DNA of 64,000 bases from Odontesthes bonariensis (Eukaryota; Chordata; Actinopteri; Atheriniformes; Atherinopsidae), in assembly GCF_027942865.1 (NCBI RefSeq), contig NC_134513.1:35953429-36017428 (forward strand). The letters run 5' to 3'. A program made the position numbers and the translations under genes. The notes below the pieces were generated by a model, which searched no databases, was not told the origin of the DNA, and saw only the letters and a program-made list of their open reading frames with translations. Below, one piece after another: positions 9,936-56,425 of the stretch (position 1 is the stretch's first letter; each line of letters begins with the position of its first letter).

Positions 9936-10796
9936 TGTTGTGGAGAAATTAGAGTCGAATCCCGCGTTGGTCAGCCGTCCATTGGGGAGTTTATTGAACA
10001 AACCGTCACAGCAAATGTGCATACAGAGTGTACAAAATGTCCACCGTCTTCATACTGTGAACCAACTTTATACTGGTTTAATCATAACATGCATGCGTCA
10101 TCCGGACTCAATCTCTTCCTGCGACGCCGAGCGTCTGCCCTAAATGTAAACAGCCCATACTACCTTTTACCCATATTCATATGAACCAGTCAACAAGGCC
10201 CAGGATGTAACTAGGCCAGAAGTCATGAACATGTCATGACATCCTTCTCCCACACCAGTTCACTCTGTTCCCAGTTCGCTCTGCTCCCAGTTCGCTATGT
10301 TCCCGGTTCGCTCTGCTCCCGGTTCGCTCTGCTCCCAGTTCGCTCTGCTCCCGGTTCACTCTGCTGTCCACTACCCAGTTCACTCTGGTCCCAGTTCACT
10401 CTGCTATCCGCTCCCAGTTCACTCTGCTCCCAGTTCACTCTTCTCCCAGTTCACTTTTCTCCCAGTTCCACCTGCTCCCAGTTCACTCTGCTCCCAGTTC
10501 ACTCTGCTCTCCGCTACCCAGTTCGCTCTGCTCTCAGTTCGCTCTGCTCCCGGTTCACTCTGCTGTCTACTACACAGTTCACTCTGCTCCCAGTTCACTC
10601 TGCTCTCCGCTCCCAGTTCAGTCTGCTCCCGGTTCCACCTGCTCCCGGTTCGCTCTGCTCCCGGTTCCACCTGCTCCCAGTTCACTCTGCTCTCGGTTCG
10701 CTCTGCTCCCAGTTAACTCTGCTCCCAGTTCACTCAGCTCTCCTCTACCCAGTTCGCTCTGCTCCCAGTTCGCTCTGCTCCCAGTTCGCTCTGCTC
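9557..10796. repeat. 1.24-kb duplicated segment, copy 2 (carries solo LTR)
   Basis: Second copy of the segment at 6633-7872, offset 2924 bp, in the same orientation. It includes the LTR with both CCAG flanks and the neighbouring variant repeat units, so the LTR was copied with its surroundings and did not insert twice. Confidence 0.85.
9936..10254 (-). mobile_element. Solo LTR, copy 2 (copied by duplication)
   Basis: By eye identical to the LTR at 7012-7330 over 319 bp, with the same CCAG at 9932-9935 and 10255-10258 and the same variant units outside it. This marks it as a passenger of the local duplication. TATA and AATAAA signals are preserved on the minus strand. Confidence 0.8.
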
Positions 10797-11775
10797 CCAG
10801 TTCACTCTGCTCCCAGTTCACTTTTTTCCCAGTTCACTCTGCCCCCAGTTCACTCTGATCCCAGTTCACTCTGCTCTCAGTTCACTCTGCTTCCAGTTCC
10901 ACCTGCTTCCACTTCATTCTGCTCCCAGTTCCACCTGCTCCCAGTTCACTCTTCTCCCAGTTCACTCTGCTCTCCGCTACCCAGTTCACTCTGCTCCCAG
11001 TTCTCTCTGCTCCCAGTTCACTCTGCTCTCCGCTACCCAGTTCGCTCTGCTCCCAGTTCACTCTGCTCTCCGCTCCCAGTTCGCTCTTCTCCCAGTTCGC
11101 TCTTCTCACGGTTCACTCTGCTCCCAGTTCACTCTGCTCTCCGCTCCCGGTTCGCTCTGCTCTCAGTTCGCTCTGCTCCCAGTTCGCTCTGCTCCCAGTT
11201 CGCTCTGCTCCCTTTTCACTCTGCTGTCCACTACCCAGTTCACTCTGCTCCCAGTTCACTCTGCTCCCAGTTCCACCTGCTTCCAGTTCATTCTGCTCCC
11301 AGTTCACTCTTCTCCCAGTTCACTCTGCTCTCCGCTACCCAGTTCACTCTGCTCACAGTTCGCTCTGCTCCCAATTCACTCTGCTCCCAGTTCACTCTGC
11401 TCTCCGCTCCCAGTTCGCTCTGCTCCCTATTCGCTCTTCTCCCAGTTCGCTCTGCTCTCCGCTCCCAGTTCGCTCTGCTCCCAGTTCGCTCTGCTCCCGG
11501 TTCACTCTGCTCCCAGTTCACTCTGCTCTCTGTTCACTCTGTTCTCCGCTACCCAGTTCGCTCTGCTCCCAGTTCGCTCTGCTCCCAGTTCACTCTGCTC
11601 CCAGTTCACTCTGCTCCCAGTTCACTCTTCTCTCCGCTCCCAGTTCACTCTGCTCCTAGTTCACTTTGCTCCCAGTTCACTCTGCTCCCAGTTCACTTTT
11701 TTCCCAGTTCACTCTGCCCCCAGTTCACTCTGATCCCAGTTCACTCTGCTCCAGGTTCGCTCTGCTCTCCGTTCC
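10255..11775. repeat. 16-bp minisatellite array, right block
   Basis: Continuation of the 16-bp array, ending near 11775 where the unit breaks into AT-rich unique DNA (CTCCGTTCCATACTAAAATAC). Bases 11776-11978 are AT-rich and hold nothing I can identify. Confidence 0.92.
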
Positions 11776-14646: not shown

Positions 14647-15608
14647 CATACCAGAATCCATAGAGAAAACACATGATTTTACAGTTCGGTCATTCTTCTC
14701 AATATGTGCACTAATGAGTGAAAGTGTAGTTATACGAGTGAACAAGTGAATGAATGATTGTTTGAATGAAAGAATGAATGAGTTAATGGATAAAAGAGAG
14801 AGTGAAGAAACAAATGAATTAACACACGATTGTATGATTGTAGTGAGTACACAAATGAATGTGTGAACCAATGAATGAACGACCAAAGATCCAAATGAAC
14901 ATATAGTTGATTAATACATATCTGGATATGAATGAATTAATGAAATGAATGAATTCACTCTGCCCACCCCCTGCTTACCCCCCACCAGCTGAGAGGGAGC
15001 CCATAGTGAGCTGAGGGGCCCTGAATCTTCATGAACACAGAGTGAATGACGCTCAGCAGGAAGGAGCTGCTGCTGCTTCTCAACCAGGTGAAGAGAAGCC
15101 AAACACACGTCACACACATCACACTCATTTCAGTCAAGAATATCAAAATATCTAACTTATTTTTAAATAAATCAGAGAGCACAGAAAAAAACAAGAGTTT
15201 CTCAGAACAGAAGACTTTATTCTGCTGTAAAACGGAGAATTTGTAAATTTTTTGGTAATTTTTCTGACATCTTGGCTTTAATTTGTGAAAAAAATTAACT
15301 CGACATTCTTTTTATATCTTTAAAACACATCTTTTTAAAGATTTTCTGAGAATCGTGGTGCTCAGATGTCAGTTGATAAAATTCTGGATTTGATAGAACT
15401 GAAGTGCTTTTTTAATGACTTATGAGATTTCCATCCATGTCGCAGTCACTGAAGAGGCCTCCTCCTGCTGCTGTGACTGACATGAGAGCAGCTGCTACCA
15501 ACACAAGCAGTAATGTGTGCATGTTATCGCTGTGGTGTCTTCACAATAATTACTGCAGCTGCTGTTCGTGGATTTTTGTGGAAATTAAAAAGTCGTGCAG
15601 AGATTTAA
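14647..15608. other. Intergenic, nothing recognised
   Basis: The stretch 14720-14880 is rich in irregular GAATGA/AATGAATG runs, a decayed simple repeat. The rest is unremarkable, with no supported exon. Confidence 0.4.
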
Positions 15609-16263
15609 AGGATAAGACCGGTTTTTTGACATTGGGCCCTTGATTTCACATTATAACATGATGTTCTACTCACCCCTGCTTGTTGTTTGTCATTTGGAGC
15701 TGTTCCAAAGATATTCGCGAGGCGTCTGGCTGCTCTCTTGAGATATTCGGCCATGAAACGGTTTCCTATGGGCAAGCTTATACAGGCACAAACTATGCAG
15801 TTTATAATGTATTAATTACTGTACACTAGCACTGATAACGTGGAGGTGCGTCGCTTACTTAAAAAAATCCGGGTTACTAATTTTGAATTTTAGCCGAATG
15901 AATAAATAGGCAGCAGGTCTGTGGGCTGTCTGTGGCAGTAGCACGACGATGACGTCAGTAACACCCACTTTACGACAAAAAAATCAAAATTACAATAACC
16001 CGGATTTTTTTAAGTAAGCGACGCACCTCCACGTTATCAGTGCTGGTGTAGAGTAATTAATACATTATAAACAGCATAGTTTGTGCCTGCATGAGCTTGC
16101 CCATAGGAAACCGTTTCATGGCCGAATATCTCAAGAGAGCAGCCAGACGCCTCGCGAATATCTTCGGAACAGCTCCAAATGACAAACAACAAGCAGGGGT
16201 GAGTAGAACATCATGCTATAATGTGAAATCAAGGGCCCAATGTCACAAAAACGGTCTTATCCT
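15609..16263. mobile_element. Long inverted-repeat (foldback) element with TTAA target site
   Basis: Two arms of about 280 bp (15609-15888 and about 15980-16263) are inverted copies of each other with a ~90-bp centre. The outer ends both read AGGATAAGACCG inward, and both are bordered by TTAA (15605-15608 and 16264-16267). It has no coding capacity. TTAA target duplication fits the piggyBac or Kolobok superfamilies; the AGG start favours Kolobok over piggyBac (CCC start), but that is inference. Confidence 0.8.
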
Positions 16264-16267
16264 TTAA

Positions 16268-17664
16268 AGGTGACATATTGTGTTAAACTCTTCTTCCTGT
16301 TCCTGGGAGCATATATCAGGGCGTCTGACGTCACCAGCAGGTGTAAAACTCCTTCTTCCTGTTCCGGGGAGCATATATCAGGGCGTCTGAAGTCACCAGC
16401 AGGTGTAAAACTCCTTCTTCCTGTTCCGGGGAGCATATATCAGGGCGTCTGAAGTCACCAGCAGGTGTAAAACTCCTTCTTCCTGTTCCTGGGAGCATAT
16501 ATCAGGGCGTCTGAGGTCACCAGCAGGTGTAAAACTCCTTCTTCCTGTTCCTGGGAGCATATATCAGGGCGTCTGAAGTCAGCAGCAGGTGTAAAACTCC
16601 TTCTTCCTGTTCCTAGGAGCATATATCAGGGCGTCTGAAGTCACCAGCAGGTGTAAAACTCTTTCTTCCTGTTCCTGAGAGCATATATCAGGGCGTCTGA
16701 AGTCAGCAGCAGGTGTAAAACTCTTTCTTCCTGTTCCTGGGAGCATATATCAGGGCGTCTGAGGTCACCAGCAGGTGTAAAACTCCTTCTTCCTGTTCCT
16801 GGGAGCATATATCAGGGCATCTGAAGTCAGCAGCAGGTGTAAAACTCCTTCTTCCTGTTCCTGGGAGCATATATCAGGGCGTCTGAAGTCACCAGCAGGT
16901 GTAAAACTCCTTCTTCCTGTTCCTGGGAGCATATATCAGGGCGTCTGAAGTCAGCAGCAGGTGTAAAACTCCCCATAAACACAATCCTGGTATTTATTTA
17001 GTTCCCCTTTTTTTGAAAGTTCCTCATTTAACTCCTTAAGTTGACCCCTCCTCCTCTGCTAAGCCCCACCCCCTCCCATCCCCCCTGCTGGACAGATGAA
17101 GCCAGCTCCGGGTGGAAATGTTCTGCTGTCAGCTGCACTGAGGAGCATGCATCTTCCATCCAGCAGCAGCCTCAGAGGATATCAGAGCCCAGTGGATGAA
17201 CTCTATCTGAGGCTAATGTTCCAGCAGAGTTAGCTACAGACTGTGGATGTGCAGCAGCCACTTTTCATCCCACTGTTTGAATAACTTGGTCCAGTTCAAC
17301 GCTGGACTGAAGAAGCTGAGCCACAGAGAGGGATCAGTTCCAGCTCTCAGAGCCTGAACTTCAGAGCAGGGAAATGGAAGCATCTGAGAAATAATTCCTC
17401 ATGGTTTATTTATTGATTTATTTTCTCCTTTAGCAGCAGCTAACGCTAACAGCTTAGCTAATGAAGGTGACGTACACCAGCTTATAAGGAGTTATTGCTG
17501 GTCCATTTCTGTTGATGAGAAAGCATTGTTTGCTAGCATCTGCTGCTAATTCACAGCTACACTGCTAAACTATTTCCCTCTGGGATCAATTGAGGAACTA
17601 TCTGTATCTCAATAAGATTTAGAAAATTGTGACAAATTCTTAAAAAGGGCAGAATATGTCACCT
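16268..17664. mobile_element. Non-autonomous TTAA element with AGGTGACATATT termini
   Basis: The left end reads AGGTGACATATT immediately after TTAA 16264-16267. The right end, AATATGTCACCT, stops at 17664 before TTAA 17665-17668. The 12-bp ends are perfect inverted repeats. Inside are a 62-bp tandem array and then ~690 bp of non-coding sequence. It shares its left TTAA with the right end of the neighbouring foldback element, so one of the two inserted into the target duplication of the other. Confidence 0.75.
16290..16972. repeat. 62-bp tandem repeat, 11 copies
   Basis: The landmark GCATATATCAGGGC recurs every 62 bp from 16309 to 16929, giving eleven units. Units differ by a few substitutions (GTCACCAGCAG versus GTCAGCAGCAG). 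The array lies wholly inside the TTAA element, next to its left end. Confidence 0.95.
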
Positions 17665-19145: not shown

Positions 19146-19672
19146 AAAGGTCAGCAGATCTCACAAAACTTCCACAGATTTCCCTTATCTGTAGCAGGAG
19201 CGGCTAATAACTGAGAGCTGCTGACATTCTCGTTGTTCTAAGCCAATATGCAAACGTGTGGAAAAGACACAGAGAACCAGAGTTCCAGTGATACTACTTA
19301 AATATCAACTTGAAGTGCTTATCCCGTACCCGTTGACTCCAACACTCCCCATCCAGACTCTCAGGGCTTGAGCTTCCTGAGGAGCTCTGGGGTAAGATCT
19401 GGAGCTTCCAGAGATTAGTGCCAGCTCCAAGGTTTGGAAGGAGCACGTTATTAGGTTCCTTTAACCTTTCTAACTGGTCCATGTTTCATTTCTGTGACTA
19501 AGCTGGGGCATAAACTGGATGTAATCTGTCCCGGCAGCCAGCAGGAAATCAGTTACCAGGAGGTGGTTGGAAATTTAGAAGCTGAAAAAACAATTACTCA
19601 TTAAGAACAAACTCGTGTTAATTTACCCGGGATGGTTGGGACCACTCCTTCTTTTATCCTGCATATTGATAG

Positions 19673-20076
19673 TGTAGTGGCTATTTCTTTGTCCTATTGA
19701 TAGCCACTGGTGGCCGAGCTGGAGAGGCTGACTCAAACATCCAAGTTGAAAATAATATCCAGAAGAAAAGGTTGTCTGAAAATATTGAGGGGTTTAATAA
19801 AAATAACATATTATACAAAACTTAGAAGATATATAATGTCCATATGAAGCAGGATCAATAAGATAAACTAAAGATTCATTTGCTTGGGTTTTGCTTGGTT
19901 GTTAGGTCAAAGACCATCACTTCCTGCTCCAGCCACGCCTTCTCAGGTAACATCACCTGTTGATATAGGAAAGGTGGATGGCCCCTTTGGCCACAAGAGG
20001 GAGACAGGAATGGGCTTGCACAACACAAAAAAGGGAGATGTAAGAAAAAACTCAAATGTGCATTTTGGCTCCTACA
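19673..20076 (-). repeat. 3' LTR of the BEL/Pao element (complete, 404 bp)
   Basis: On the minus strand it begins TGTAGGAGCCAAAATG just after a purine-rich tract (AGGGGCCGG at about 20081-20089) and ends AAATAGCCACTACA. A TATATAT run lies about 25-30 bp before the point where the partial 5' LTR begins, so it may set the transcript start. The terminal ~145 bp match 24737-24860, except for a ~24-bp insertion here. Confidence 0.75.
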
Positions 20077-20228
20077 ATTCCGGCCCCTAAATGTTTTAGG
20101 CTTAACATAAAACAATTATTAATTTTTTTTAATATATAAGGAGCCAATAAATAGAAATAATAAGGAAAGACATACATTACATTTTCTAATTTGGTCACTT
20201 GGTCCCATCTTCCAAAAGCAGGCACAAT

Positions 20229-22450
20229 TTAGTAATTGGCCTCTCTAGAACGCCAGTTTTCATCTTGAGCTTCACTAACCGGACCCTCTGAATCAGGCTT
20301 CGTCTCAAGGATTCTTGCAAGAGGCCATGAAGATCTTGGGGAGGTAGGGTCAACGATCATCACAACATCTCCTGTCTTGAGGTTCTCACTGACTTTGGAC
20401 CACTTTTGCCGTTCTTGCATCAGAGTCAAGTATTCATGCGTCCATCGTCTCCAAAACAAGTCCGCCAGATACTGCACTTGTTTCCACCGGCGCCTGGTGT
20501 ACAAGTCAGTGCTGGAGAACTCACCGGGAGGGAGCACGTGTTGCGTGTTGAGTAGGAGGATGTGATTTGGGGTAAGTGGCTCATTGACAGAATTCCTCTC
20601 CGTGTGTGTGGCTTCTTAGGGACTACAATGTTGAATCTGAAGTCATCACCTTCCACACTCCACTGTAGTCCAAGCGCCCGGTCCACTGGTAATTGGTCCG
20701 TGTCGAGATCTAAGGATCTGATGTCTTTTCCTCTTTCCTCTTCTTTTATGCTTGACAGCACAGCTCTGTTGTTGCTCACCCATTTTGTAAGCTGGAATCC
20801 ACCTTTACTGCATTGTTCAACCAGGTCTGTTGTTAACTGCACGGCATCCTGTACTGTGGGCAGAGAAGTCAAGCAGTCGTCAACATAAAAATTATGCAGT
20901 ATTATGTTTGTCACCTGTGGTCCAATGTGGAGATTCTCCTCTGCTGTTCTTCGCAGGGCAAAGCTGGCACAGCTTGGGGAGGACGTGGCTCCAAACAAGT
21001 GCACCAGCATGCGATGGTCTACTGGGTCTTTTTCAATGTTCCCATCTCTCCACCACAAGAACCGCAGAAAGTCTGTGTCTGACTTCGTTACCCTGACTTG
21101 GTGGAACATAGATTTAATGTCTGCCATTAGAGCAATGGGCTCTCGTCTGAATATGAGCAGAACACCAATTAATGAGTTGGTCAGATCAGGGCCTTGCAAA
21201 AGTTCCGAGTTCAGGGACCTACCCTGGTACGCCGCACCGCAGTCAAACACCACCCTGAGCGTGTTTTTCTTGGGGTGGTATACTCCATGATGCGGTATAT
21301 ACCAGGTTCGTCCTTCAGCTCCTGCCAGCTCTTTCTGTGGGACCACTTCAGCATATCCTTGAGCTATGACATCATTTAGGAAGGCGGAGTACTCATCATG
21401 GAACACCGGATTTCGACTCAGTTTCCTTTTCAGGTTGTGGAGGCGCTGTAGGGCAATGGGACGATTATTGGGCAACTTGACATTATCGTCCTTGAAGGGT
21501 AAGTCTAGTGTATAGTGGCCATCTATAACTGATACAGAGTTGTTTGCAATTTCAAGGAACTTTTTGTCCTCAATGGAGTGCTCACGCTTTTCGTCAGCAG
21601 TCTTTTCATTAAATTCATGGTTGTATTGACTGATCAACAACTTCTCCAGATTTGCAACAGAGATCCTGTTCACTGCTGCAGATTGACAGTCATTATCTAT
21701 GGCGGACTTGCCATGTCTTAAGGGCCCGTTGACAACCCATCCCACTAGGGTCTTTATGGCATAGGGTCCCTCACCCTGACTGTTTATTACTTCCCAGGGC
21801 TCTATGACCTTCGAAGCATTGGTTCCTATCAGCAGTTCAATGCTACTGTCGATCAATGGAATGTTGACCTTTTCCAGGTATGGCCATCTGGCGAGATCCT
21901 GCTTTGTGGGGATATGTTCAGAGGTTACAGGCATTTCTTTTTGCGTGAAAACATCAGGTAATGAAATGAAATTGTTTTCTGCAAGACCAGAAATTTCTAA
22001 GCCTGACACCACATAAGTTGGTACAGATGTCTCGTGACTCATTGTTTGTAGCAGTATGTTTGTTTTTCTTCCCTGAACGTTCAGCTGTGACATGAGCTGC
22101 TCAGTACAAAAGGTAGCTGAGCTACCTGGGTCAATGAATGCATATGCTGTTATGACCTTTTCTCCTCTGCCTGCTTTTACCTTTACAGGGAGCACTGAGA
22201 GCACGTTACCGGCCCCTGTACCGGCCCCAATGTGCCCACATTCTTTGGGCTGTGCATCGACAGTATGTACGTCTTCAGACGTGTAAGGCCTTTGTTGTTG
22301 CTGTGGCTTTTGTTTTGTGTCAATGTGCAGGACACTTGGGTGCTGTTTGAAGCACACAGTGCAGGTAAGTCTTTGTTTGCAGTGTTTGTTGAGGTGACCT
22401 TGATGTAGACAGCCGAAGCAGATCCCTTTTTCCTTTAAGAAATCTATCTT
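20229..22450 (-). pseudogene. BEL/Pao pol fragment: protease, reverse transcriptase, DUF5641-like tail
   Basis: The frame from about 22450 begins with a CCHC zinc knuckle (CFGCLHQGHLNKHC). It then shows a BEL-type aspartic protease (AFIDPGSSATF) and a Pao reverse transcriptase: MADIKSMFHQVRV (motif A), FGATSSPSCASFAL (motif B), and FYVDD (motif C, the catalytic YVDD). After VVPKKPHTRRGIL the frame jumps directly to the region that normally follows the integrase core, read in another frame down to 20229 (LADLFWRRWTHEYL, GDVVMIVD). RNase H and the integrase catalytic core, some 2 kb in relatives, are missing. The break lies near 20585-20590, at a CTGTCA (minus strand) that probably belonged to both deletion ends. 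The enzyme cannot support its own integration. Confidence 0.85.
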
Positions 22451-24422
22451 CTCTCTGTGTCTCTTTTATCAGTGCATCACAGCAGTCCAGTGTATGATTG
22501 GAGCTACACATAGGGCAAGTTGCTTGCATGACATTACCTTTGGGGTGTTGGCTGAGTTGGGGGGAAGAGGCAGAGACAGTAGTTGCACCACTGACGAAAG
22601 TGGCACCGGTGGACTTGGATGGCGGCCTAGATGTATTGGGTAGGTTTCCCGCAGCTCTTGTGGGCCTATCTTGAATGTCTCCATACACTGGATCAGTAAT
22701 CACTCTCAGTTGCCTTTCAAGAAATGTGACAAGATCAGAGAATTGTGGTCTGTTGTTCTGCTTCTCCTGAAATTCACACACATAAGAGCGCCAGCGCTCT
22801 CTGAATTTGTAGGGGAGCTTCATGATCAAGACCTTCAGGCTGGAGGACAAGTTAATTTCCTGTGAGTATCTCATTTCTTGCATTGCATTACAACAACTCC
22901 TCAAAAATAACACAAAGGCTTGTAGTGCCTTCGCATCCTCAGTTTTAATGACAGGCCATTCCAATGCTTTTTTCAAGTAGGCAGAGCAAATCTTGAATTC
23001 ATCTCCATAGTGTTCCTGAAGCAAAGCCTTTGCCTTTTCATAGCCTGTGTCTGAGCTCATGTGAAAACAACTCCTCACAAGGTCTCGAGGGTGCCCACTT
23101 GTGTATTGATCAAGAAAGTACAGCCTATCTGCACTATTGTCAGTTTTAAGCTCAATCATATGCTCAAAAGCTCTGATGAATGGCCTATACGACAAAACAT
23201 CTCCGCTGAAGACTGGGACTTCTCTTTGAGGGAGTTTTGACTGTTGTTGTTGCTTTACAAGAATGGATGTTATGTCATTTTGACGCTGTAGAATATTTGC
23301 AAGTCCATCATTAACATCATGCCTTGGAGGTGCTACGAGTTGGTTAGACATGCTTGTTGTGTTAGAGGGGTCGCTCTTTCTAAGTGAATCAAGAGGACTT
23401 GAGGTGGTCTTTTTAATGTTTAAACTCTCTCCCTCTCCTATCAAGACAGACTGAAAGTGAACGCCATCTTTTGGGCGAACACTTGGGGTTTGCATTATTG
23501 AGAGGGCTTGGGCAACTTTATCTAAAGAGAGAAACTCACTCTCTGATGTAGCACTTTTCATTGACATTTCAGCAAGGTAAGCATTCATTTGATCTTTACC
23601 TTCACTCTGCAGTGTTTCATCTGGTAGCTTCACTTGCATGCCTGGTGCTTGTGTGACAGAGGTTGGATCCCTTGGCATCTCCTCACTTGGTAGTTCCACT
23701 GTTGGACTGGACAGCAAGGCTCTTTGTTGTTGCTCAGCAGAATTAAGAACTGCAAGTTTGGATGATGGGGCAGCCAACTGCGTTTTCAGCTCAAGAGCCT
23801 CACGTTTCTGCTTTAATGCTCGCATCTCTTTCTGTAATGCACTCTCCAGTTCCTCCAATTCATGCATTTCCTTCAGTGCTGCAGCCTTGGCCTCGAGTCC
23901 AGCTCTTTCAGCCTCTGCAACTACTCTGGCTGATAATACTGAAGATGTCCTGGACCCACGTGACCTGTGAGAGACTTTAGAAATGCTGTCCTTTGCGGTC
24001 ACCTCCACTTCCTCCTCCTTCTCTTCTTCTGGTTTAGGATTAGTAGTCTTAGATGCACCAAAAAGCCACTCAGACACAAGAGAAAGAAAATGATCAATTT
24101 CAGCCATTTTGGGTTTAAACCATTCGCATTCATCTTTGTTCATTGCATCTTCACTCAGTTGCCCCTGGTACTCTCTATGTACAGACTTAAACTCTGCATG
24201 AAGTTGCATGTACTTTTGAAGATTTTCTTTTACTTCCTGTATGCCAGTCACATCTTCCATTAATTCAAGCATTATATTCTTGCTTTTAGTCAACTGACTA
24301 AGTTTTCCTTTTCTAACATTTTTCATTTTAGGTTCATGTTCACCATCTTCCATTTCCTTTCCTGAGTTTGAGGCACTATTAGCTACTCCCTCCATCACAT
24401 TTGTTTCCATTTGATCAGCCAT
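22445..24422 (-). pseudogene. BEL/Pao gag (DUF1759-like)
   Basis: The frame starts at ATG 24422 (MADQMETNVMEGVANS). It carries an acidic N-terminal region, a long coiled-coil-like stretch (about residues 165-250, rich in A/E/L/K) and a DUF1759-like capsid part (LPQREVPVFSGDVLSYRPF, then LYFLDQYTSGHPRDLVR). A first Cys cluster (CPMCSSNHTLDCC) follows. Just after it, near 22447, a one-base frame change separates it from the CCHC knuckle and pol; beyond that point the gag frame reads unrelated residues to its stop at 22320. BEL elements usually have a single gag-pol frame, so I read this as an inactivating indel and not programmed frameshifting, though the latter is not excluded. Confidence 0.8.
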
Positions 24423-24736
24423 GTTTGTTTCAGTCCTTATTTATCCAGTCATCCAAACAATATAGTAGTCCACTCCAATAGCAGAAAACTTTACAACTGG
24501 GCAAATTCCGCATAATCCACTCCAATAGTAGACTTCCTTAATTGAATCTTCAACTTCAACATCAAACACGTCGTCTTAAATGTACTAGAGGGAGTACATA
24601 CCATGCTCTCAAACAATCAGCTCCATGTGCTCCATAGCTTCCATCCATTTCTCCTTTTCCATCTTGAATCCACGGTTTGTTTTTTCAAGTTGGCTCACTG
24701 GATGGCATCCATCAGTTTGGTAGAGGTCTTTGACTT

Positions 24737-24860
24737 TGTAGTGGCTATTTCTTTGTCCTATTGATAGCCACTAGTGGCCGAGCTGGAGAGGCTGACTCAA
24801 ACATCCAAGTTGAAAATAATTAAAATATTGAGGGGTTTAATGAAAATAACAGATGATACA
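24737..24860 (-). repeat. Truncated 5' LTR of the BEL/Pao element (R-U5 part only)
   Basis: It matches the end of the 3' LTR from the putative transcript start to the terminal CCACTACA. The 280 bp corresponding to U3 are absent, and genomic flank (ATCATATTTAATGCC) follows at once. Confidence 0.75.
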
Positions 24861-26060
24861 AATCATATTTAATGCCAAACTCCACTTTCATGCTGATGAT
24901 ACGGTGACGTGTTGCTCTGCATCTCCTCCTAATCAGGCCGTCTGTCAGCTGCAGCGAGCGTTTAGCTCTAACTTTGCGTGATAAACTCATTAATCTTCCT
25001 TCATTTTGAGACTGATTCCGTGTTCCAATACAAAGACGTGTAAAGCTGGGTTTATTCAGGGCCAGAAAAAGACTTGCTGCTGCGGCTTTTCCCTCCCGTA
25101 GACTCAAACATGGGCGTATTCTGATCTGTAAAGCTATCGTAGGTCTGCTCCCAACTCATTTACCGACTTAAACTCTTGGTTCCTGTTGTCTGTGGCTAAG
25201 TTTGGAAAGAAAGCATCTCGGTGTGCTGCTCACTCTGCTGGGAATAAAGTGCAAACTCACCTGAATCTTAAGCAGCTGGTGTCACCAAAATAATTGAAAC
25301 TAATGTGAAACATATTAGCAGCAGAACGATATGTCCCCAAATCATCCAGGTCTATGATTCTGTTCTCCTGAGGTTGTCCTCCTGAGAATATGAATGTGAG
25401 ACCGTGCACATTTAATCTGAGCAGACACGCCTCAGGCGCCTGAACACTGAGCCTCTGCGGTAATGACCTGGAAACTCTGGGAGGTGACTCCACACCAGCC
25501 CACAGTCTGCTGAGATTACCATGAAAATGTGAAAGACTTGAGAAGCTTGGTGCCCGTCCAGTTAATTCTGCACAGCTGATAGATTCCTTCATTAAAAAAC
25601 TGGAAACCTGAGGAACTGTGCCGCTTCTCCAAATAAAGACAGATATTAAAAATGTTTCAAAAGCGAATTTGTTTAAGTAACCTGCAGGCTGTGAATGAGC
25701 CTTTACTTTTCCTACAGTCATTTACTGTTTAAGTGGAAACATCGATCACAAACACTTTTTAAACGTGGACAGTAAGATGAAAACAGTTTCTCTGTTTTTA
25801 CAGCCTCCATCACAGCTCAACGGGCAGAAGTTTCTGTCCTGATGGAGAGCAGATGAGAGCAGCGCTAGTCTGAGTTTCACCTCCAGGATGATGCTGCTGC
25901 TGATGATGAGGTTGGTTTCATGTTTGGAAGATCTTTATTTGCTGCTCAGAGATGTTTCTTTGTCTTTGTTCATGTGGTGGTTGTTTCAGAGTTCTCCAAC
26001 AAGTTAAAAATGGCACTTACACTCATCACATACACTTAGTTTTATTAAGCTTGAATGAAT

Positions 26061-26066
26061 TTTATT
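26061..26066 (-). terminator. Candidate poly(A) signal of the small secreted-peptide gene, copy 1
   Basis: AATAAA on the minus strand (TTTATT on plus), about 370 bp after the stop codon. A second one lies at 26041-26046. The copy 2 equivalent is near 30030-30035. Assignment to the gene is inferred from position only. Confidence 0.4.
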
Positions 26067-26223
26067 GCATACAAAAAGTTTTAAAGTTACAAATGATAGC
26101 AAAGTGAACTTGGATGACAGATTGTGGAAGTTTGTTGCAACCATTTCATTCTGTCCAAAGCACGCAAGTTAAAAAAGATGGCAGATAAGAAGCATTGAAC
26201 CGATTCCTCATCACGGAAACCAA

Positions 26224-26401
26224 CTCAGGGCGGTGTAAGCCAGAATGGAGCGAGGGGTGGAGCACTCAGGGCGGTGTAAGCCAGAATGGAGCGAGGGGTG
26301 GAGCACTCAGGGCGGTGTAAGCCAGAATGGAGCGAGGGGTGGAGCACTCAGGGCAGTGTAAGCCAGAATGGAGCGAGGGGTGGAGCACTCAGGGCGGTGT
26401 A
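26224..26401. repeat. 41-bp tandem repeat, about 4 copies (copy 1)
   Basis: Unit beginning ACTCAGGGCGGTGTAAGCC, period 41 bp, four full units plus a partial. It lies just past the stop codon of the minus-strand peptide gene, so it is probably in its 3' UTR. Confidence 0.92.
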
Positions 26402-26436
26402 GCACAGGCTGTGAGCACATGCTGATGGTCAGGAAA

Positions 26437-27276
26437 CTACTGATACTGGAGAAGAAACAGAGACAAAATGAATCAAAAATAAAATCTTTTTGGAATTCAG
26501 GTTCATTCTCAGAAATATTTTCTGTGATTTAAACGATATCCCGAAGCACTTACTGAATATTTTTCACCAATAAAAAGCCAATAAAAAGATAAATGCAGAA
26601 GCCAAACTGGCTTTCCACGTGCCGGGGGAAGGGAAAGGAAACATTTAGCTTTTATATCCTATGAAACGGTTCAATCAAACATTCACAACATAATCCAGAT
26701 CTTTTATTTTCAACGTGCTTCTTGTTATTGACACGATAGAATTAAGCAAGTTTACCGGGAAGCCGTATCGCCCTGGGAAGTAGGGTTTTCTCTTGATCTT
26801 TTTCTACAAAAAGCAATGAATGAATGAACTGTTAGAACGTTGTCCTCCATGCATGCTTTTCTGCTGCTGTTCTGCTCACTTTATGTCATGGTTTCAGCAC
26901 CAAATCTACTGCAACAGATGATCGATTTTAAAGCATCTTCAAACTGTGGAACACTACAGAGCTGACATCAGTGCTGCTCACAGGTAAGACAAGAGGAGAA
27001 CACCTTTAAACACATTTACCTGTGGCAGGACACCTGGATGGTGCACCAGACCTCTGAGTGCTCGCTTCTCTGCATCGACCTTCTGTAAAAGGAAAAAAAA
27101 ACGTGATCACGCCACAGGTATCAATGAATGAGTGAAGCTGTATAAAGCCAACAACCTCTGATGGATGTTTTTACCTGATCACCTGTGAAAAGAGGGGCTG
27201 CATCGGAGGGAGTGACGCCAGCGATGAGCAGGACAGCCTGCAGACTCAACAGGAGCAGCAGCACGGATGCCCTCAT
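26437..27276 (-). CDS. Small secreted peptide precursor, copy A (four exons, 73 aa)
   Basis: Unrecognised gene, assembled from splice signals. Minus-strand exons are 27276-27175 (34 codons), 27082-27020 (21), 26803-26756 (16) and 26445-26437 (TAT CAG stop). All introns (92, 216, 310 bp) are phase 0, with donors CAG|GTAAAA, CAG|GTAAAT, CCG|GTAAAC and acceptors CCTTTTACAG, TTTTTGTAG, TTCTTCTCCAG after pyrimidine tracts. Residues 1-26 look like a signal peptide (MRASVLLLLLSLQAV, then a likely cut after PSDA). The mature part starts APLFTGDQ, has a KR at 40-41 that could be a convertase site, a segment LVHHPGVLPQ, the basic run KKIKRK (56-61) and a tail PYFPGRYGFPYQ. No Cys. Phase-0 short exons and a Pro/Tyr/Gln tail recall SCPP-family secreted proteins (statherin-like); a peptide hormone or antimicrobial precursor is equally possible. 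The gene is duplicated intact. Confidence 0.6.
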
Positions 27277-27569
27277 GACTGAGGCGCACTGAACACAAAG
27301 CCCACATTTACACGCTCAATGGAACCCGTGTGACCAAAGGGGAAGCAAAAACAGGACGTCGGCTTCAGCTTCATTACCAGCAAGATGCAAGTCATGGACC
27401 GCAAGAAGCAATAACAATTGTGCAATTATGTTAGATAAAGTTGGACTGAGAGATCCCAAAACTTACAAAACCTTAACAAGTAAGATGCTTGCATCCCGAA
27501 GGCCTCAGAGTGCAGGACTAATGTTGTTTTAATGAGTTTCCAGCATCTTTCTGGAAGAGTGGGAGGTGG

Positions 27570-27705
27570 ATTAGGGCCGCAGCTGCAGGGATGTGTATGC
27601 AGCATCACTCTGTTGTGGTGTAGAGAGAGCTGAGCCCGTTGATCTATGTTTCAACCCTCAGCTATGCTCACAAGCTGTAGTGACTGAAAGAATGAGATCA
27701 CAAAT
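27570..27705 (+). mobile_element. LINE (Rex3/RTE-like) relic, copy 1
   Basis: The nucleotides align by eye with the 12 kb LINE fragment at about 12150-12300, including GAGCTGAGCC and the segment around CAACCCTCAGCTATG and GTGACTGAAAGAATGAGATC. It is heavily decayed, with indels and stops. The copy 2 equivalent is 31539-31674. Confidence 0.6.
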
Positions 27706-27782
27706 GATGGCTTTTGCTTGTGAGTTTGCTTGCTACTTCTGGCCAATACAACAGCAAAACCATGCTGACAAAGTTGGATCGC

Positions 27783-28133
27783 TCACAAGGTCCAATCATT
27801 TTGCTCCATTTCTTCCAACAAAGATCTGGAACACTGATGGCTCTGACCACAGCACACGTTTCCACCGTGTGACGCTCCATCCCAGACGCCTCCGAGCCCA
27901 GAGAAGTGGACGCCGCCTCTGGACCAGGCTAACATCAGGCTTCTTCTCTGCACAGTAAAGTCTGTGAATGGAACTCTGGATCGTAGTGCTGGACAAAGGT
28001 TTCCCACAGTAATCCCTTGTCCGTGTGCTTCTATCAGCTGCTGATGAATGAGGGTTCTTGATGCAGTGCCGTCTGAGGGGTCAGAGGTCACGGGGGTCCA
28101 GCTTAGGCAGCTACAGTCACCTGTTAACATCAC
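27783..28133 (-). pseudogene. Tc1/mariner transposase relic, copy 1
   Basis: In one minus-strand frame I read KPDVSLVQRRRPLLWARRRL then GWSVTRWKRVLWSEPSVF and QIFVGRNG, which fit the segment around the second catalytic Asp of fish Tc1 transposases (WARAHLGW..WKRVLWSDES.F). The expected DES is EPS, so the catalytic residue is gone. Flanking parts are scrambled, and no terminal inverted repeats were found. Confidence 0.65.
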
Positions 28134-30192
28134 CTGTTATCAATTAGTTTATTAATTCATTTCCTCATTTCTAGCGATAAATTATCCCATTCTTTTTTGG
28201 AAAATATTGCAGGTCTGAAACAGAAACAAAATATCTTGTGTTTCTGTGGACACTTCACACAACTAAATTACAAGAGGTTATGTAACTTGTAAAGATCAGC
28301 AGATCTCACAAAACTTCCACAGATTTCCCTTATCTGTAGCAGGAGCGGCTAATAACTGAGAGCTGCTGACATTCTCGTTGTTCTAAGCCAATATGCAAAC
28401 GTGTGGAAAAGACACAGAGAACCAGAGTTCCAGTGATACTACTTAAATATCAACTTGAAGTGCTTATCCCGTACCCGTTGACTCCAACACTCCCCATCCA
28501 GACTCTCAGGGCTTGAGCTTCCTGAGGAGCTCTGGGGTAAGATCTGGAGCTTCCAGAGATTAGTGCCAGCTCCAAGGTTTGGAAGGAACACGTTATTAGG
28601 TTCCTTTAACCTTTGAGACTCTCTAACTGGTCCATGTTTCATTTCTGTGACTAAGCTGGGGCATAAACTGGATGTAATCTGTCCCGGCAGCCAGCAGGAA
28701 ATCAGTTACCAGGAGGTGGTTGGAAATTTAGAAGCTGAAAAAACAATTACTCATTAAGAACAAACTCGTGTTAATTTACCCGGGTTGGTTGGGACCACTC
28801 CTTCTTTTATCCTGCATATTGATAGATTCGATCATATTTAATGCCAAACTCCACTTTCATGCTGACGATACGGTGACGTGTTGCTCTGCATCTCCTCCTA
28901 ATCAGGCCGTCTGTCAGCTGCAGCGAGCGTTTAGCTCTAACTTTGCGTGATAAACTCATTAATCTTCCTTCATTTTGAGACTGATTCCGTGTTCCAATAC
29001 AAAGACGTGTAAAGCTGGGTTTATTCAGGGCCAGAAAAAGACTTGCTGCTGCGGCTTTTCCCTCCCGTAGACTCAAACATGGGCGTATTCTGATCTGTAA
29101 AGCTATCGTAGGTCTGCTCCCAACTCATTTACAGACTTAAACTCTTGGTTCCTGTTGTCTGTGGCTAAGTTTGGAAAGAAAGCATCTCGGTGTGCTGCTC
29201 ACTCTGCTGGGAATAAAGTGCAAACTCACCTGAATCTTAAGCAGCTGGTGTCACCAAAATAATTGAAACTAATGTGAAACATATTAGCAGCAGAACGATA
29301 TGTCCCCAAATCATCCAGGTCTATGATTCTGTTCTCCTGAGGTTGTCCTCCTGAGAATATGAATGTGAGACCGTGCACATTTAATCTGAGCAGACACGCC
29401 TCAGGCGCCTGAACACTGAGCCTCTGCGGTAATGACCTGGAAACTCTGGGAGGTGACTCCACACCAGCCCACAGTCTGCTGAGATTACCATGAAAATGTG
29501 AAAGACTTGAGAAGCTTGGTGCCCGTCCAGTTAATTCTGCACAGCTGATAGATTCCTTCATTAAAAAACTGGAAACCTGAGGAACTGTGCCGCTTCTCCA
29601 AATAAAGACAGATATTAAAAATGTTTCAAAAGCGAATTTGTTTAATTAACCTGCAGGCTGTGAATGAGCCTTTACTTTTCCTACAGTCATTTACTGTTTA
29701 AGTGGAAACATCGATCACAAACACTTTTTAAACGTGGACAGTAAGATGAAAACAGTTTCTCTGTTTTTACAGCCTCCATCACAGCTCAACGGGCAGAAGT
29801 TTCTGTCCTGATGGAGAGCAGATGAGAGCAGCGCTAGTCTGAGTTTCACCTCCAGGATGATGCTGCTGCTGATGATGAGGTTGGTTTCATGTTTGGAAGA
29901 TCTTTATTTGCTGCTCAGAGATGTTTCTTTGTCTTTGTTCATGTGGTGGTTGTTTCAGAGTTCTCCAACAAGTTAAAAATGGCACTTACACTCATCACAT
30001 ACACTTAGTTTTATTAAGCTTGAATGAATTTTATTGCATACAAAAAGTTTTAAAGTTACAAATGATAGCAAAGTGAACTTGGATGACAGATTGTGGAAGT
30101 TTGTTGCAACCATTTCATTCTGTCCAAAGCACGCAAGTTAAAAAAGATGGCAGATAAGAAGCATTGAACCGATTCCTCATCACGGAAACCAA

Positions 30193-30370
30193 CTCAGGGC
30201 GGTGTAAGCCAGAATGGAGCGAGGGGTGGAGCACTCAGGGCGGTGTAAGCCAGAATGGAGCGAGGGGTGGAGCACTCAGGGCAGTGTAAGCCAGAATGGA
30301 GCGAGGGGTGGAGCACTCAGGGCGGTGTAAGCCAGAATGGAGCGAGGGGTGGAGCACTCAGGGCGGTGTA
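30193..30370. repeat. 41-bp tandem repeat, about 4 copies (copy 2)
   Basis: Same 41-bp array as in copy 1 with the same copy number. A GGGCAGTG variant sits in a different unit in the two copies (fourth in copy 1, third in copy 2), so the arrays have been re-shuffled since duplication. Confidence 0.9.
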
Positions 30371-30405
30371 GCACAGGCTGTGAGCACATGCTGATGGTCA
30401 GGAAA

Positions 30406-31245
30406 CTACTGATACTGGAGAAGAAACAGAGACAAAATGAATCAAAAATAAAATCTTTTTGGAATTCAGGTTCATTCTCAGAAATATTTTCTGTGATTTA
30501 AACGATATCCCGAAGCACTTACTGAATATTTTTCACCAATAAAAAGCCAATAAAAAGATAAATGCAGAAGCCAAACTGGCTTTCCACGTGCCGGGGGAAG
30601 GGAAAGGAAACATTTAGCTTTTATATCCTATGAAACGGTTCAATCAAACATTCACAACATAATCCAGATCTTTTATTTTCAACGTGCTTCTTGTTATTGA
30701 CACGATAGAATTAAGCAAGTTCACCGGGAAGCCGTATTGCCCTGGGAAGTAGGGTCTTCTCCTGATCTTTTTCTACAAAAAGCAATGAATGAATGAACTG
30801 TTAGAACGTTGTCCTCCATGCATGCTTTTCTGCTGCTGTTCTGCTCACTTTATGTCATGGTTTCAGCACCACATCTACTGCAACAGATGATCGATTTTAA
30901 AGCATCTTCAAACTGTGGAACACTACAGAGCTGACATCAGTGCTGCTCACAGGTAAGACAAGAGGAGAACACCTTTAAACACATTTACCTGTGGCAGGAC
31001 ACCTGGATGGTGCACCAGACCTCTGAGTGCTCGCTTCTCTGCATCGACCTTCTGTAAAAGGAAAAAAAAACGTGATCACGCCACAGGTATCAATGAATGA
31101 GTGAAGCTGTATAAAGCCAACAACCTCTGATGGATGTTTTTACCTGATCACCTGTGAAAAGAGGGGCTGCATCGGAGGGAGTGACGCCAGCGATGAGCAG
31201 GACAGCCTGCAGACTCAACAGGAGCAGCAGCACGGATGCCCTCAT
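30406..31245 (-). CDS. Small secreted peptide precursor, copy B (four exons, 73 aa)
   Basis: Paralogue of the gene at 26437-27276, offset 3969. Exons are 31245-31144, 31051-30989, 30772-30725 and 30414-30406, minus strand, all phase 0. Exons 1, 2 and 4 are identical to copy A by eye. Exon 3 reads KKIRRRPYFPGQYGFP instead of KKIKRKPYFPGRYGFP: two Lys-to-Arg and one Arg-to-Gln, with no silent change. The following donor is GTGAAC instead of GTAAAC. Reading frame, stop, signal peptide and all splice dinucleotides are intact, so both copies look functional. Same uncertainty about family as copy A. Confidence 0.6.
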
Positions 31246-31751
31246 GACTGAGGCGCACTGAACACAAAGCCCACATTTACACGCTCAATGGAACCCGTGT
31301 GACCAAAGGGGAAGCAAAATCAGGACGTCGACTTCAGCTTCATTACCAGCAAGATGCAAGTCATGGACCGCAAGAAGCAATAACAATTGTGCAATTATGT
31401 TAGATAAAGTTGGACTGAGAGATCCCAAAACTTACAAAACCTTAACAAGTAAGATGCTTGCATCCTGAAGGCCTCAGAGTGCAGGACTAATGTTGTTTTA
31501 ATGAGTTTCCAGCATCTTTCTGGAAGAGTGGGAGGTGGATTAGGGCCGCAGCTGCAGGGATGTGTATGCAGCATCACTCTGTTGTGGTGTAGAGAGAGCT
31601 GAGCCCGTTGATCTATGTTTCAACCCTCAGCTATGCTCACAAGCTGTAGTGACTGAAAGAATGAGATCACAAATGATGGCTTTTGCTTGTGAATTTGCTT
31701 GCTACTTCTGGCCAATACAACAGCAAAACCATGCTGACAAAGTTGGATCGC

Positions 31752-32254
31752 TCACAAGGTCCAATCATTTTGCTCCATTTCTTCCAACAAAGATCTGGAA
31801 CACTGATGGCTCTGACCACAGCACACGTTTCCACCGTGTGACGCTCCATCCCAGACGCCTCCGAGCCCAGAGAAGTGGACGCTCCATCCCAGACGCCTCC
31901 GAGCCCAGAGAAGTGGACGCTCCATCCCAGACGCCTCCGAGCCCAGAGAAGTGGACGCTCCATCCCAGACGCCTCCGAGCCCAGAGAAGTGGACGCTCCA
32001 TCCCAGACGCCTCCGAGCCCAGAGATGTGGACGCCGCCTCTGGACCAGGCTAACATCAGGCTTCTTCTCTGCACAGTAAAGTCTGTGAATGGAACTCTGG
32101 ATCGTAGTGCTGGACAAAGGTTTCCCACAGTAATCCCTCGTCCGTGTGCTTCTATCAGCTGCTGATGAATGAGGGTTCTTGATGCAGCGCCGTCTGAGGG
32201 GTCAGAGGTCACAGGGGTCCAGCTTAGGCAGCTACAGTCATCTGTTAACATCAC
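31752..32254 (-). pseudogene. Tc1/mariner transposase relic, copy 2
   Basis: Same relic as at 27783-28133, but enlarged by internal expansion of a 38-bp stretch encoding the WARRRLGWSV part, which is repeated in tandem. Non-functional. Confidence 0.6.
31840..32030. repeat. 38-bp tandem repeat, 5 copies (1 copy in the other duplicate)
   Basis: The unit starting GACGCTCCATCCCAGACGCC is present five times here and once at the equivalent place in copy 1 (about 27871-27908). The expansion therefore happened after the segmental duplication, or contracted in copy 1. Confidence 0.9.
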
Positions 32255-32549
32255 CTGTTATCAATTAGTTTATTAATTCATTTCCTCATTTCTAGCGATA
32301 AATTATCCCCTTCTTTTTTGGAAAATATCGCAGGTCTGAAACAGAAACAAAATATCTTGTGTTTCTGTGGACACTTCACACAACTAAATTACAAGAGGTT
32401 ATGTAACTTTCATTTAATGTAAGTGTGTTTCAAATATGTTCATTGTGGATTAAATCGTGTTTTTTTCTTTTAGTTTCTGTCAGTATAACGTTGTGAACCA
32501 CCTCGGTGTTTCAAACCGTGTTAAAGTTGGATGACGACATTAGTCATGG

Positions 32550-34341: not shown

Positions 34342-34859
34342 TAGGGGTGGGTATTGGCAAAGAAGTCACGATTCGATTCGAATCACGATTCACATGCCAC
34401 GATGCGATTCTGTCACGATACTTGAATTATTGCGATGCATCGCGATATTTTCACTGAACATACTTAAAAAAAAAAAATACAGCCATTACCAGTGGCTGAC
34501 TGGCTGTGTATGGTCTGGATAGTGTCTTCAATTGATACATAACTCAAAGCAAATCAATTCATAACTGTATTTATTGAAACAACTTTTGGAGGTATTGCCA
34601 TTAAAACAAATATTACTGGACACAAATATTACTATTACTGGACACACTCATCACAAAAAGTGCATAGGATTTATAAAACTTAAAATAACAAAATAGGGAT
34701 GATCAGTACAGACAAAGTGCATAGGCTTTATACAACTATAAAAAATATATACATATATTGCAAACATCCCTTGCAGCGAAATGCATCAATTGCATGTGTC
34801 CTATCATTAAAGGCATAAAAATTTTTGCATCGTCATGACGATTATTTTGCACACCCCTA
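34342..34859. mobile_element. hAT-type MITE with perfect 8-bp TSD (nup50 intron 1)
   Basis: 518 bp. The ends read TAGGGGTGGGTATTGG and ...TTTTGCACACCCCTA. Flanking 8-bp direct repeats ATGATTAT lie at 34334-34341 and 34860-34867, diagnostic of hAT. No coding capacity. A related copy in inverse orientation is at 56776-57367. Confidence 0.9.
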
Positions 34860-41300: not shown

Positions 41301-44300
41301 ACTTGGCTGTAGCTGTACTTAGCTGTAACTTTAACTTAGCTGTAACTTAGCTGTAACTTTAAAGGCAGGGTAGGGGATCTTTTTCTGGAACATTTTTTTA
41401 CATATTGCTTGAAATACTCTTCACACCCCCATTGCAACCAATTAATTAAAAGTTTTGACACAAATATGAAAACTTTTAGTGGCCTCTAGAACGTACAATC
41501 TAGGAAAAACAGTATCCAATCATTGTGAACGGACCGTTCACAATGATTGGATTCTGATGCCGTCTATCAAACTGCAATCTGCTCCTCCTTCTCCCTGTGT
41601 GCGTACCCTGCTCCGTGAACGAAGCTTGGCAGGAAGCTAAACTAGAGCCAGCTTGGCTAGCACCTAGCATTATTAAACGTATAGTTAGCATAAACTAAAT
41701 ACTAAATACGGCAACGATCGATGCTTGCTGTCAGAACAGCGCTCGTGCACCTTCGTGCTCGTGCGCGTTCATGTACTCTAGAGGCGTGCCTTCGGGGGGA
41801 AAGTGAAGAAAAGGGTTGGGACTTTTTACCTGTGTATTTTCAAAATGCAGCTTCGCTGGACTCAAAATCCAGGATCTCCTACCCTACCTTTAACTTAGCT
41901 GCAGCTGTAACTTTAACTTAGCTGTAACTTAGCTGCAGCTGTAACTTTAACTTAGCTGTAACTTAGCTGCAGCTGGAACTTAGCTGTAACTTGGCTGCAG
42001 CTGGAACTTGGCTGCAGCTGGAACTTGGCTGCAGCTGGAACTTGGCTGCAGCTGGAACTTAGCTGCAGCTGTAACTTAGCTGCAGCTGTAACTTAGCTGT
42101 AGCTGTAACTTTAACTTGGCCGTAACTTAGCTGTATCTGTAACTTAGCTGTATCTGTAACTTAGCTGTAACTTAGCTGCAGCTGTAACTTTAACTTAGCT
42201 GTAGCTGTAACTTAGCTGCAACTTAGCTGTAGCTGTAACTTAGCTGTAGCTGTAACTTAGCTGTAGCTGTAACGTAGCTGTAGCTGTAACTTAGCTTCAG
42301 CTGTAACTTAGCTTCAGCTGTAACTTAGCTTCAGCTGTAACTTAGCTGCAGCTGTATCTGTAACTTAGCTGTATCTGTAACTTAGCTGTAACTTAGCTGT
42401 AGCTGTAACTTTAACTTAGCTGTAGCTGTAACTGTAACTTAGCTGCAGCTGTAACTTTAACTTAGCTGCAGCTGTAACTTAAATGTAACTTTAACTTAGC
42501 TGTAACTTAGCTGCAGCTGTAACTTTAACTTAGCTGTAGCTGTAACTTAGCTGCAACTTAGCTGTAGCTGTAACTTAGCTGTAGCTGTAACTTAGCTGTA
42601 GCTGTAACTTAGCTGCAGCTATAACTTTAACTTAGCTGTAACTTGGCTGAAGCTGTAACTTAGCTGCAGCTGTAACTTAGCTGCAGCTGTAACTTAGCTG
42701 CAGCTGTAACTTAGCTGCAGCTGTAACTTTGCTGCAGCTGTAACTTTGCTGCAGCTGTAACTTTGCTGTAGCTGTAACTTTGCTGTAGCTGTAACTTAGC
42801 TGCAGCTGTAACTTACTGCAGCTGTAACTTTAACTTAGCTGTAACTTAGCTGCAGCTGTAACTTTAACTTAGCTGTGACTTAGCTGTGACTTAGCTGTAG
42901 CTTAGCTGTAGCTGTGACTTAGCTGTAGCTGTGACTTAGCTGTAGCTGTGACTTAGCTTTAGCTGTAACTTTAACTTAGCTGTAGCTTAGCTGTAACTTT
43001 AACTTAGCTGTAGCTGTAACTTAGCTGTAGCTGTAACTTAGCTGCAGCTGTGACTTAGCTGTAGCCTGGACTTAGCTGCAGCTGTGACTTAGCTGTAGCT
43101 GTGACTTAGCTGTAACTGTGACTTAGCTGTAGCTGTGACTTAGCTGTAGCTGTGACTTAGCTGCAGCTGTAACTTAGCTGTAGCTGTGACTTAGCTGCAG
43201 CTGTGACTTAGCTGCAGCTGTGACTTAGCTGCAGCTGTGACTTAGCTGCAGCTGTGACTTAGCTGTAGCTGTAACTTAGCTGTAGCTGTGACTTAGCTGC
43301 AGCTGTGACTTAGCTGTAGCTGTGACTTAGCTGCAGCTGTAACTTAGCTGCAGCTGTAACTTAGCTGTAGCTGTGACTTAGCTGCAGCTGTGACTTAGCT
43401 GCAGCTGTGACTTAGCTGTAGCTGTGACTTAGCTGCAGCTGTGACTTAGCTGTAACTGTGACTTAGCTGCAGCTGTGACTTAGCTGCAGCTGTGACTTAG
43501 CTGCAGCTGTGACTTAGCTGTAGCTGTGACTTAGCTGTAGCTGTGACTTAGCTGCAGCTGTGACTTAGCTGCAGCTGTGACTTAGCTGTAGCTGTGACTT
43601 AGCTGTAGCTGTGACTTAGCTGCAGCTGTGACTTAGCTGCAGCTGTGACTTAGCTGCAGCTGTGACTTAGCTGCAGCTGTGACTTAGCTGCAACTGTGAC
43701 TTAGCTGCAGCTGTAACTTAGCTGCAGCTGTGACTTAGCTGTAGCTGTGGGCTTTGTTTGGGCTAAAACCAGCTGAACTGTGCACCTGACAGAAAGCTGA
43801 CAGCAGTAAGATCAGTGTCTCCTCGTCTTATCGTCGGCTGTTTCTCTTTGTCTCAATGATCTTTAGCTCAAACTAAAGGGGCCAGTAGTGAGCTGAAAGA
43901 TGGGGCACGGGGGGGTCTGAATGGAACCAGGGTGTCAGAAGAGATGAGGACTGGGTTTCTCTGAATCCTGATGGGGGATCAGACACTCTGATGAGCTGCT
44001 GTCCCTCTGAGAACAGATGAAACTCACAGATGTGACGTTTAAACACCTCAGAGGGTTAACTCTGACTTCTTTAATTAACGAGGACATTAACCTGAACGCA
44101 GGAAATAACGTCCTGTTGGTGTTTCTGCTCACTGACCGCTGACTGTCGTTCCATCAGGAAACATCCTGCTGAACATCATGGTGCCGCCGTCCATGCCGTG
44201 CTCGCGGGTCGGGAAGAACAACGTGATGGTCGTGTGCGTCCCCAATCCGCCCGTGGACGATAAGAACCCCAGCAGCCCCGTCTCCCTCCTGATCCGGGTC

Positions 44301-47880: not shown

Positions 47881-56425
<8,545 letters not shown>

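Follow-up and report, generated by a model that had tools for sequence, protein, structure and literature searches.

A candidate tandem pair of short-exon genes for a small secreted peptide beside NUP50 in the silverside Odontesthes bonariensis

The closest described systems to the candidate secreted-peptide gene considered here include the genes of the SCPP family. According to the accessible part of PMC6732285, virtually all SCPP introns are of phase 0, and the available text of PMC4373244 states that a Ser-x-Glu phosphorylation motif characterises most SCPPs and that the signal peptide is encoded in one early exon, which in AMTN also holds the first two mature residues. SCPP genes sit in clusters with sparcl1, spp1 or other SCPP genes, and those of teleosts trace to four clusters, except scpplpq20, which was not found in euteleosts (accessible part of PMC13367325). 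In this study, we analysed 64,000 nucleotides (nt) of the genome of O. bonariensis (pejerrey; NC_134513.1, positions 35,953,429 to 36,017,428 of the forward strand; this whole stretch is the window, and positions below are counted within it), in which a preliminary description had proposed a duplicated gene made of four tiny exons. The candidate adjoins NUP50 and occurs as two nearly identical tandem copies, A and B. The observation is real and probably represents a gene; with a probability of 0.48 to about 0.5, we read it as an unannotated orphan gene pair of O. bonariensis or its close kin that would encode a 73-residue secreted precursor, translated in the frame of the preliminary description (hereafter the primary frame). 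This reading is favoured by the exon anatomy, the open phase-0 frame, the rarity of such exon chains, coding-like codon use, a pair of AATAAA signals, the composition and charge of the product, the absence of relatives despite a fish-positive control, and lysine-to-arginine changes between the copies.

Both copies contain the four minus-strand exons originally described (102, 63, 48 and 9 nt, lengths all multiples of three, phase 0), with GT-AG at every intron border, an uninterrupted frame of 73 residues, and the KR at residues 40-41 encoded in exon 2. The basic run KKIKRK and the tail PYFPGRYGFPYQ hold for copy A, whereas copy B reads KKIRRR and PYFPGQYGFPYQ. The coordinates of copy B equal those of copy A plus 3969, and the features of the two copies are as follows.

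27175..27276, minus strand: copy A coding exon 1, 102 nt, with the ATG and a hydrophobic signal-peptide-like stretch, residues 1-34
27020..27082, minus strand: copy A coding exon 2, 63 nt, residues 35-55, KR at 40-41
26756..26803, minus strand: copy A coding exon 3, 48 nt, KKIKRKPYFPGRYGFP
26437..26445, minus strand: copy A last coding stretch, 9 nt, Tyr-Gln-stop, where a putative 3' untranslated region (UTR) of ~400 nt begins
26041..26066, minus strand: copy A AATAAA pair, first bases 26066 and 26046, then a GT-rich stretch
31144..31245, minus strand: copy B coding exon 1
30989..31051, minus strand: copy B coding exon 2
30725..30772, minus strand: copy B coding exon 3, KKIRRRPYFPGQYGFP, donor GTGAAC, not GTAAAC
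30406..30414, minus strand: copy B last coding stretch, Tyr-Gln-stop
30010..30035, minus strand: copy B AATAAA pair, first bases 30035 and 30015
26223..26401 (copy A) and 30192-30370 (copy B): minisatellite with a 41-bp unit and 4.4 copies, within the putative 3' UTR

An in-frame stop precedes the ATG, which carries G at -3, and at the other end the two AATAAA signals lie ~370-390 nt past the stop codon, followed by GT-rich sequence; one more AATAAA lies inside intron 3, at 26708. When scored with a splice-site position weight matrix, acceptors 1 and 3 rank in the top 0.1% and 0.5% of 7,262 AGs and deserve the word strong that had been applied to all the splice signals, while acceptor 2 (top 3.6%) is weaker and the donors of copy A are moderate.

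The predicted N-terminus reaches a 12-residue hydrophobicity maximum of 2.73 and contains an S-D-A site that we take to obey the -3/-1 rule, cleavage after residue 20 or 26 being set by rule. A signal peptide of ~20-26 residues would route the precursor to secretion and leave a presumed mature chain of 47 or 53 residues, cysteine-free, with six Tyr/Phe and a net charge of +5 to +7; the 47-residue chain has a net charge of +7 in copy A and +6 in copy B, and a Pro plus Gln content of 19.1% and 21.3%, respectively. In this Pro/Tyr/Phe-containing chain, an aromatic-proline tail would come after a segment rich in basic residues (KKIKRK or KKIRRR), a composition suggesting that it would bind anionic surfaces such as microbial membranes, mucus or mineral; this surface-binding, host-defence or mucosal role of the predicted cationic peptide is our best guess, held with low probability. 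With an N-terminus resembling a signal peptide and with dibasic pairs at residues 40, 56, 59 and 60, the precursor could belong to a peptide hormone or neuropeptide that would be processed at KR 40-41 and the KK/KRK cluster. We consider this quite improbable, as no amidation Gly stands before any dibasic pair or at the C-terminus, Pro directly follows the KRK cluster, the basic cluster is altered between the copies, and the searches below found no homolog, though hormones are usually conserved.

How often such an arrangement would arise by chance was estimated with a chain scan of both strands of 52.3 kb, in which an open four-exon chain starts at 5 of 45 signal-peptide-like ATGs. The two copies rank second and third (27.9 and 27.7), after a chain inside the large exon of NUP50; at both copies, the top-scoring chain uses a first donor other than that of the preliminary description. 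Among 400 simulated 43-kb sequences (fourth-order Markov), chains scoring at least 27.2 appeared in 3 at a hydrophobicity of at least 2.0 and in none at 2.5 or more (candidate 2.73). Because the simulations were poorer in signal-like ATGs (22.9 per 43 kb, against 45 per 52.3 kb in the window) and the cut-offs were post hoc, we put the chance odds at roughly a few percent per window, or below. Codon use points to the primary frame: with a zebrafish codon table, which also rewards amino-acid composition, exon 1 is outscored by 0.8% of open noncoding segments and exons 2 and 3 together by 0.08% of noncoding segments in copy A and 0.58% in copy B, compared with 10% or 8% for the third frame of exons 2 and 3. 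NUP50 windows behave likewise under this table.

Several observations weigh against translation in the primary frame. The donors of copy A lie in the top 2.8%, 1.0% and 5.5% of 6,098 GTs and all lack G at +5; candidate donors score 1.5-4.4, and those of NUP50 (n=4) score 7.7 in two cases and 0.8 and -1.1 in the two with approximate exon ends. In the 1.1-1.2 kb preceding each ATG, neither a TATA nor a CCAAT match was found. All thresholds of the null model were chosen after the candidate had been seen. A small codon table, trained mostly on NUP50, scores exon 2 at -0.7 in the primary frame against +2.6 in the third, and exon 3 of copy B at only +0.2. The candidate has no entry in the protein database at the lengths searched, although O. 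bonariensis proteins are in it. Finally, copies A and B differ at three sites of exon 3, each of which alters a residue in the primary frame but is silent in an alternative one (CAA/CAG, AAA/AAG, GCG/GCA).

Part of this evidence is shared with the view that the locus is not a protein gene at all, being either an exon-like arrangement that arose by chance or a noncoding RNA, spliced and divergent from NUP50, with an accidental frame. The moderate donors and the absence of upstream promoter matches agree with it, as do the lack of relatives at E<=1 in protein searches and the near-identity of the copies, which leaves no room to see constraint. Exons 2 and 3 are, in addition, open in all three frames, and their openness therefore carries little weight. 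On the other hand, the rarity of the chain in simulations and the frame-specific codon use speak against a noncoding locus, which we regard as a serious though rather unlikely alternative.

The silent differences bear on a second possibility, which arises from another first donor.

27182..27183 (copy A) and 31151/31152 (copy B), minus strand: alternative donor boundary CAG/GTGATC, 8 nt upstream of that first described

Use of this donor puts exons 2-4 in another open frame, likewise ending at residue 73, and it scores 3.36 against 2.82 for the CAG/GTAAAA of the preliminary description. A real gene read in this other frame would have an exon 1 shorter by 8 nt, phase 1 introns, and a 73-residue product in which an unchanged signal peptide precedes a chain with two cysteines; it would agree with the higher-scoring donor, with the chain that the scan prefers in both copies, and with the three silent sites, a coincidence estimated to arise by chance about once in several tens of trials. 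However, codon use of exons 2 and 3 in the alternative frame is noncoding-like (bettered by 30% and 20% of noncoding segments), the NUP50-trained table is strongly negative (-10.8 and -6.9, copy A), and no relatives were found at E<=1. As codon use outweighs three silent sites, the primary frame is favoured at about six to one, and translation in the alternative frame appears very unlikely. Still less probable is a young silverside-specific pair in which the donors 8 nt apart would give two 73-residue secreted peptides from overlapping frames, possibly born beside a divergent NUP50 promoter, with only the basic tail exon of one frame diverging and the other frame unchanged.

The segmental duplication that had been noted is present, and its extent is larger than described.

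19146..28288: tandem-duplication unit A, split by a BEL/Pao-like insertion at ~19673-24861
28291..32409: tandem-duplication unit B, 4.1 kb long and lacking the insertion

The two units of this ~4.1-kb duplication abut head to tail and differ at 24 of 3,997 aligned bases (3/527 in the left flank, 14/3,052 in the centre and 7/418 in the right flank), by one 8-bp indel, and by the expansion of a 38-bp minisatellite in unit B only (31840-32034, five copies against one in unit A, ~0.6 kb upstream of the copy B ATG). The BEL/Pao-like element has terminal repeats of ~150 bp and a pol region at 20.4-24.4 kb on the minus strand, with Pfam matches to DUF1759 and an aspartyl protease and weak ones to RVT_1 and DUF5641. 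It is present in unit A only, unit B having the empty site, and the empty-site flanks join imperfectly, with about five bases missing beside the insert. In a tblastn search of the window, no match other than the two copies fell below E=1, the following one being at E=1.2. With 24 differences in 3,997 bases, the copies are too young to show conservation and two intact frames are expected even without selection, so that the recent duplication adds almost no evidence for a gene. Compared with copy A, copy B has three residue changes, K59R, K61R and R66Q, the first two of which keep a basic residue, plus a change at +3 of the third donor. The 41 bp at 26753-26793, comprising exon 3 and its donor, hold 4 of the 14 central differences (simulated p 0.008 for at least 4 in any 41 bp); for at least 3 of 14, p is 0.0013 in exon 3, 0.014 in any exon and 0.077 anywhere in the coding sequence. 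The cluster in exon 3 is unusual, though few sites stand behind it. Gene conversion was considered for it and rejected, since the left flank and the centre diverge alike and the right flank diverges more (Fisher p 0.009), with no clear pattern.

Searches for relatives agree with an orphan. The 73-residue protein of copy A has no relative at E<=1 among ~5.8 billion proteins (lengths ~40-127 residues; two candidates shared words), and neither has a 117-residue composite of the alternative frame, copy B exons 2-4 in the primary frame, and the third frame (~5.8 billion proteins, ~64-204 residues; three candidates). Neither copy matched any Pfam family at E<=10, and five 8-10-residue strings of the peptide had no match in the literature. 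A PDB match at E=0.014 to the repeat protein E8 was taken as chance, each of its four repeats being weak (i-Evalue 480 or worse). As a positive control, the Nup50 proteins of three fishes, O. bonariensis, Leuresthes tenuis and Melanotaenia boesemani, are present in the protein database with NCBI names; the NUP50 exon at 37843-38664 matches O. bonariensis Nup50 with 100% identity over 98% of the 221-residue query, and the next named fish Nup50, among the best 120 of 437 proteins, is that of L. tenuis (87%). According to the accessible part of PMC13326419, L. tenuis was annotated by the NCBI pipeline with RNA-seq and protein alignments. Two fish Nup50 clusters (P0001 and P0003) are single-member, with no separate transcript-derived Nup50 within them, and the absence of the candidate from the database does not argue against its expression. 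Short frames that lack homologs may be annotated as noncoding RNA. Taken with the codon use that backs the primary frame, these results fit the earlier proposal of an unannotated, lineage-specific and putatively secreted peptide.

As for the neighbourhood, NUP50 is placed by Pfam on the plus strand from 35.37 kb, with its last exon at ~44.2-44.4 kb, and a Pfam scan found DUF2045, which we take to be the domain of KIAA0930, on the minus strand, extending from 48.9 kb to and past the 51.5-kb region; KIAA0930 presumably adjoins NUP50 in human. Several repeats were also noticed in the window: a large array of a ~16-23-bp repeat occupies positions 26-11767 (Tandem Repeats Finder: 16-bp unit, 712 copies, 72% matches), a 17-bp unit is repeated 110 times at 41891-43748, ahead of the last NUP50 exon, and a 33-bp unit 50 times at 49095-50733, between DUF2045 exons. 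A 480-bp inverted dispersed repeat pair (34342-34821 and 56901-57367, 95% identical) is probably a transposable element, and ~670 bp at 15604-16268 are self-complementary (88%), forming a large palindrome or inverted repeat.

If translated, the candidate would be a secreted peptide of a farmed fish for which the searches above found no relative. It would illustrate how annotation misses short-exon genes, and its near-identical copies would offer a test case for the early divergence of a cationic peptide. If untranslated, it would be an instructive false positive of reading exons by eye.

The preliminary description had also suggested a link to the SCPP family, which we do not uphold. All three coding introns are in phase 0 in the originally described model, as in SCPP genes, and are not so with the alternative donor. 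Exon 1 encodes 34 residues, of which 14 or 8 would be mature (cleavage after 20 or 26), and Ser-x-Glu is absent in both copies. In the parts of the window scanned, outside the satellite stretches at 1-11.7, 13.45-14.8, 40.2-43.8 and 49.0-50.75 kb, Pfam recovered NUP50 and DUF2045 and no SCPP-type family. With agreement in intron phase only, and disagreement in two structural features and in location within the window, the candidate is not filed as an SCPP. A translocated, derived P/Q-rich SCPP gene would explain the short phase-0 exons, predicted secretion, tandem duplication and Pro/Tyr/Gln-containing tail, all of which the candidate shares with P/Q-rich SCPPs. Unlike these, it lacks Ser-x-Glu, would encode 8 or more mature residues in the exon of the signal peptide, is strongly basic and has no recognised SCPP neighbour in the window. 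Together with a Pro plus Gln content of only 19-21%, the four-cluster origin of teleost SCPP genes and the failure to find scpplpq20 in euteleosts (accessible part of PMC13367325), this makes such a gene the least probable of the explanations considered. Turning to other known systems, the candidate calls to mind statherin, histatins and FDCSP of mammals, which are short and basic or Tyr/Pro-rich like this putatively secreted product, down to a GR[FY]G-like stretch near the C-terminus; this likeness is confined to a very short stretch, and no homology was found by search. Piscidin-type fish antimicrobial peptides likewise have a ~70-residue precursor with a signal peptide and are cationic and fish-specific, but the candidate differs from them in having no Pfam match at E<=10, no clear amphipathic helix block and a proline-rich tail. 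The candidate also resembles orphan or de novo secreted-peptide genes in having no homologs found and in being short, intron-containing and, as far as searched, lineage-restricted.

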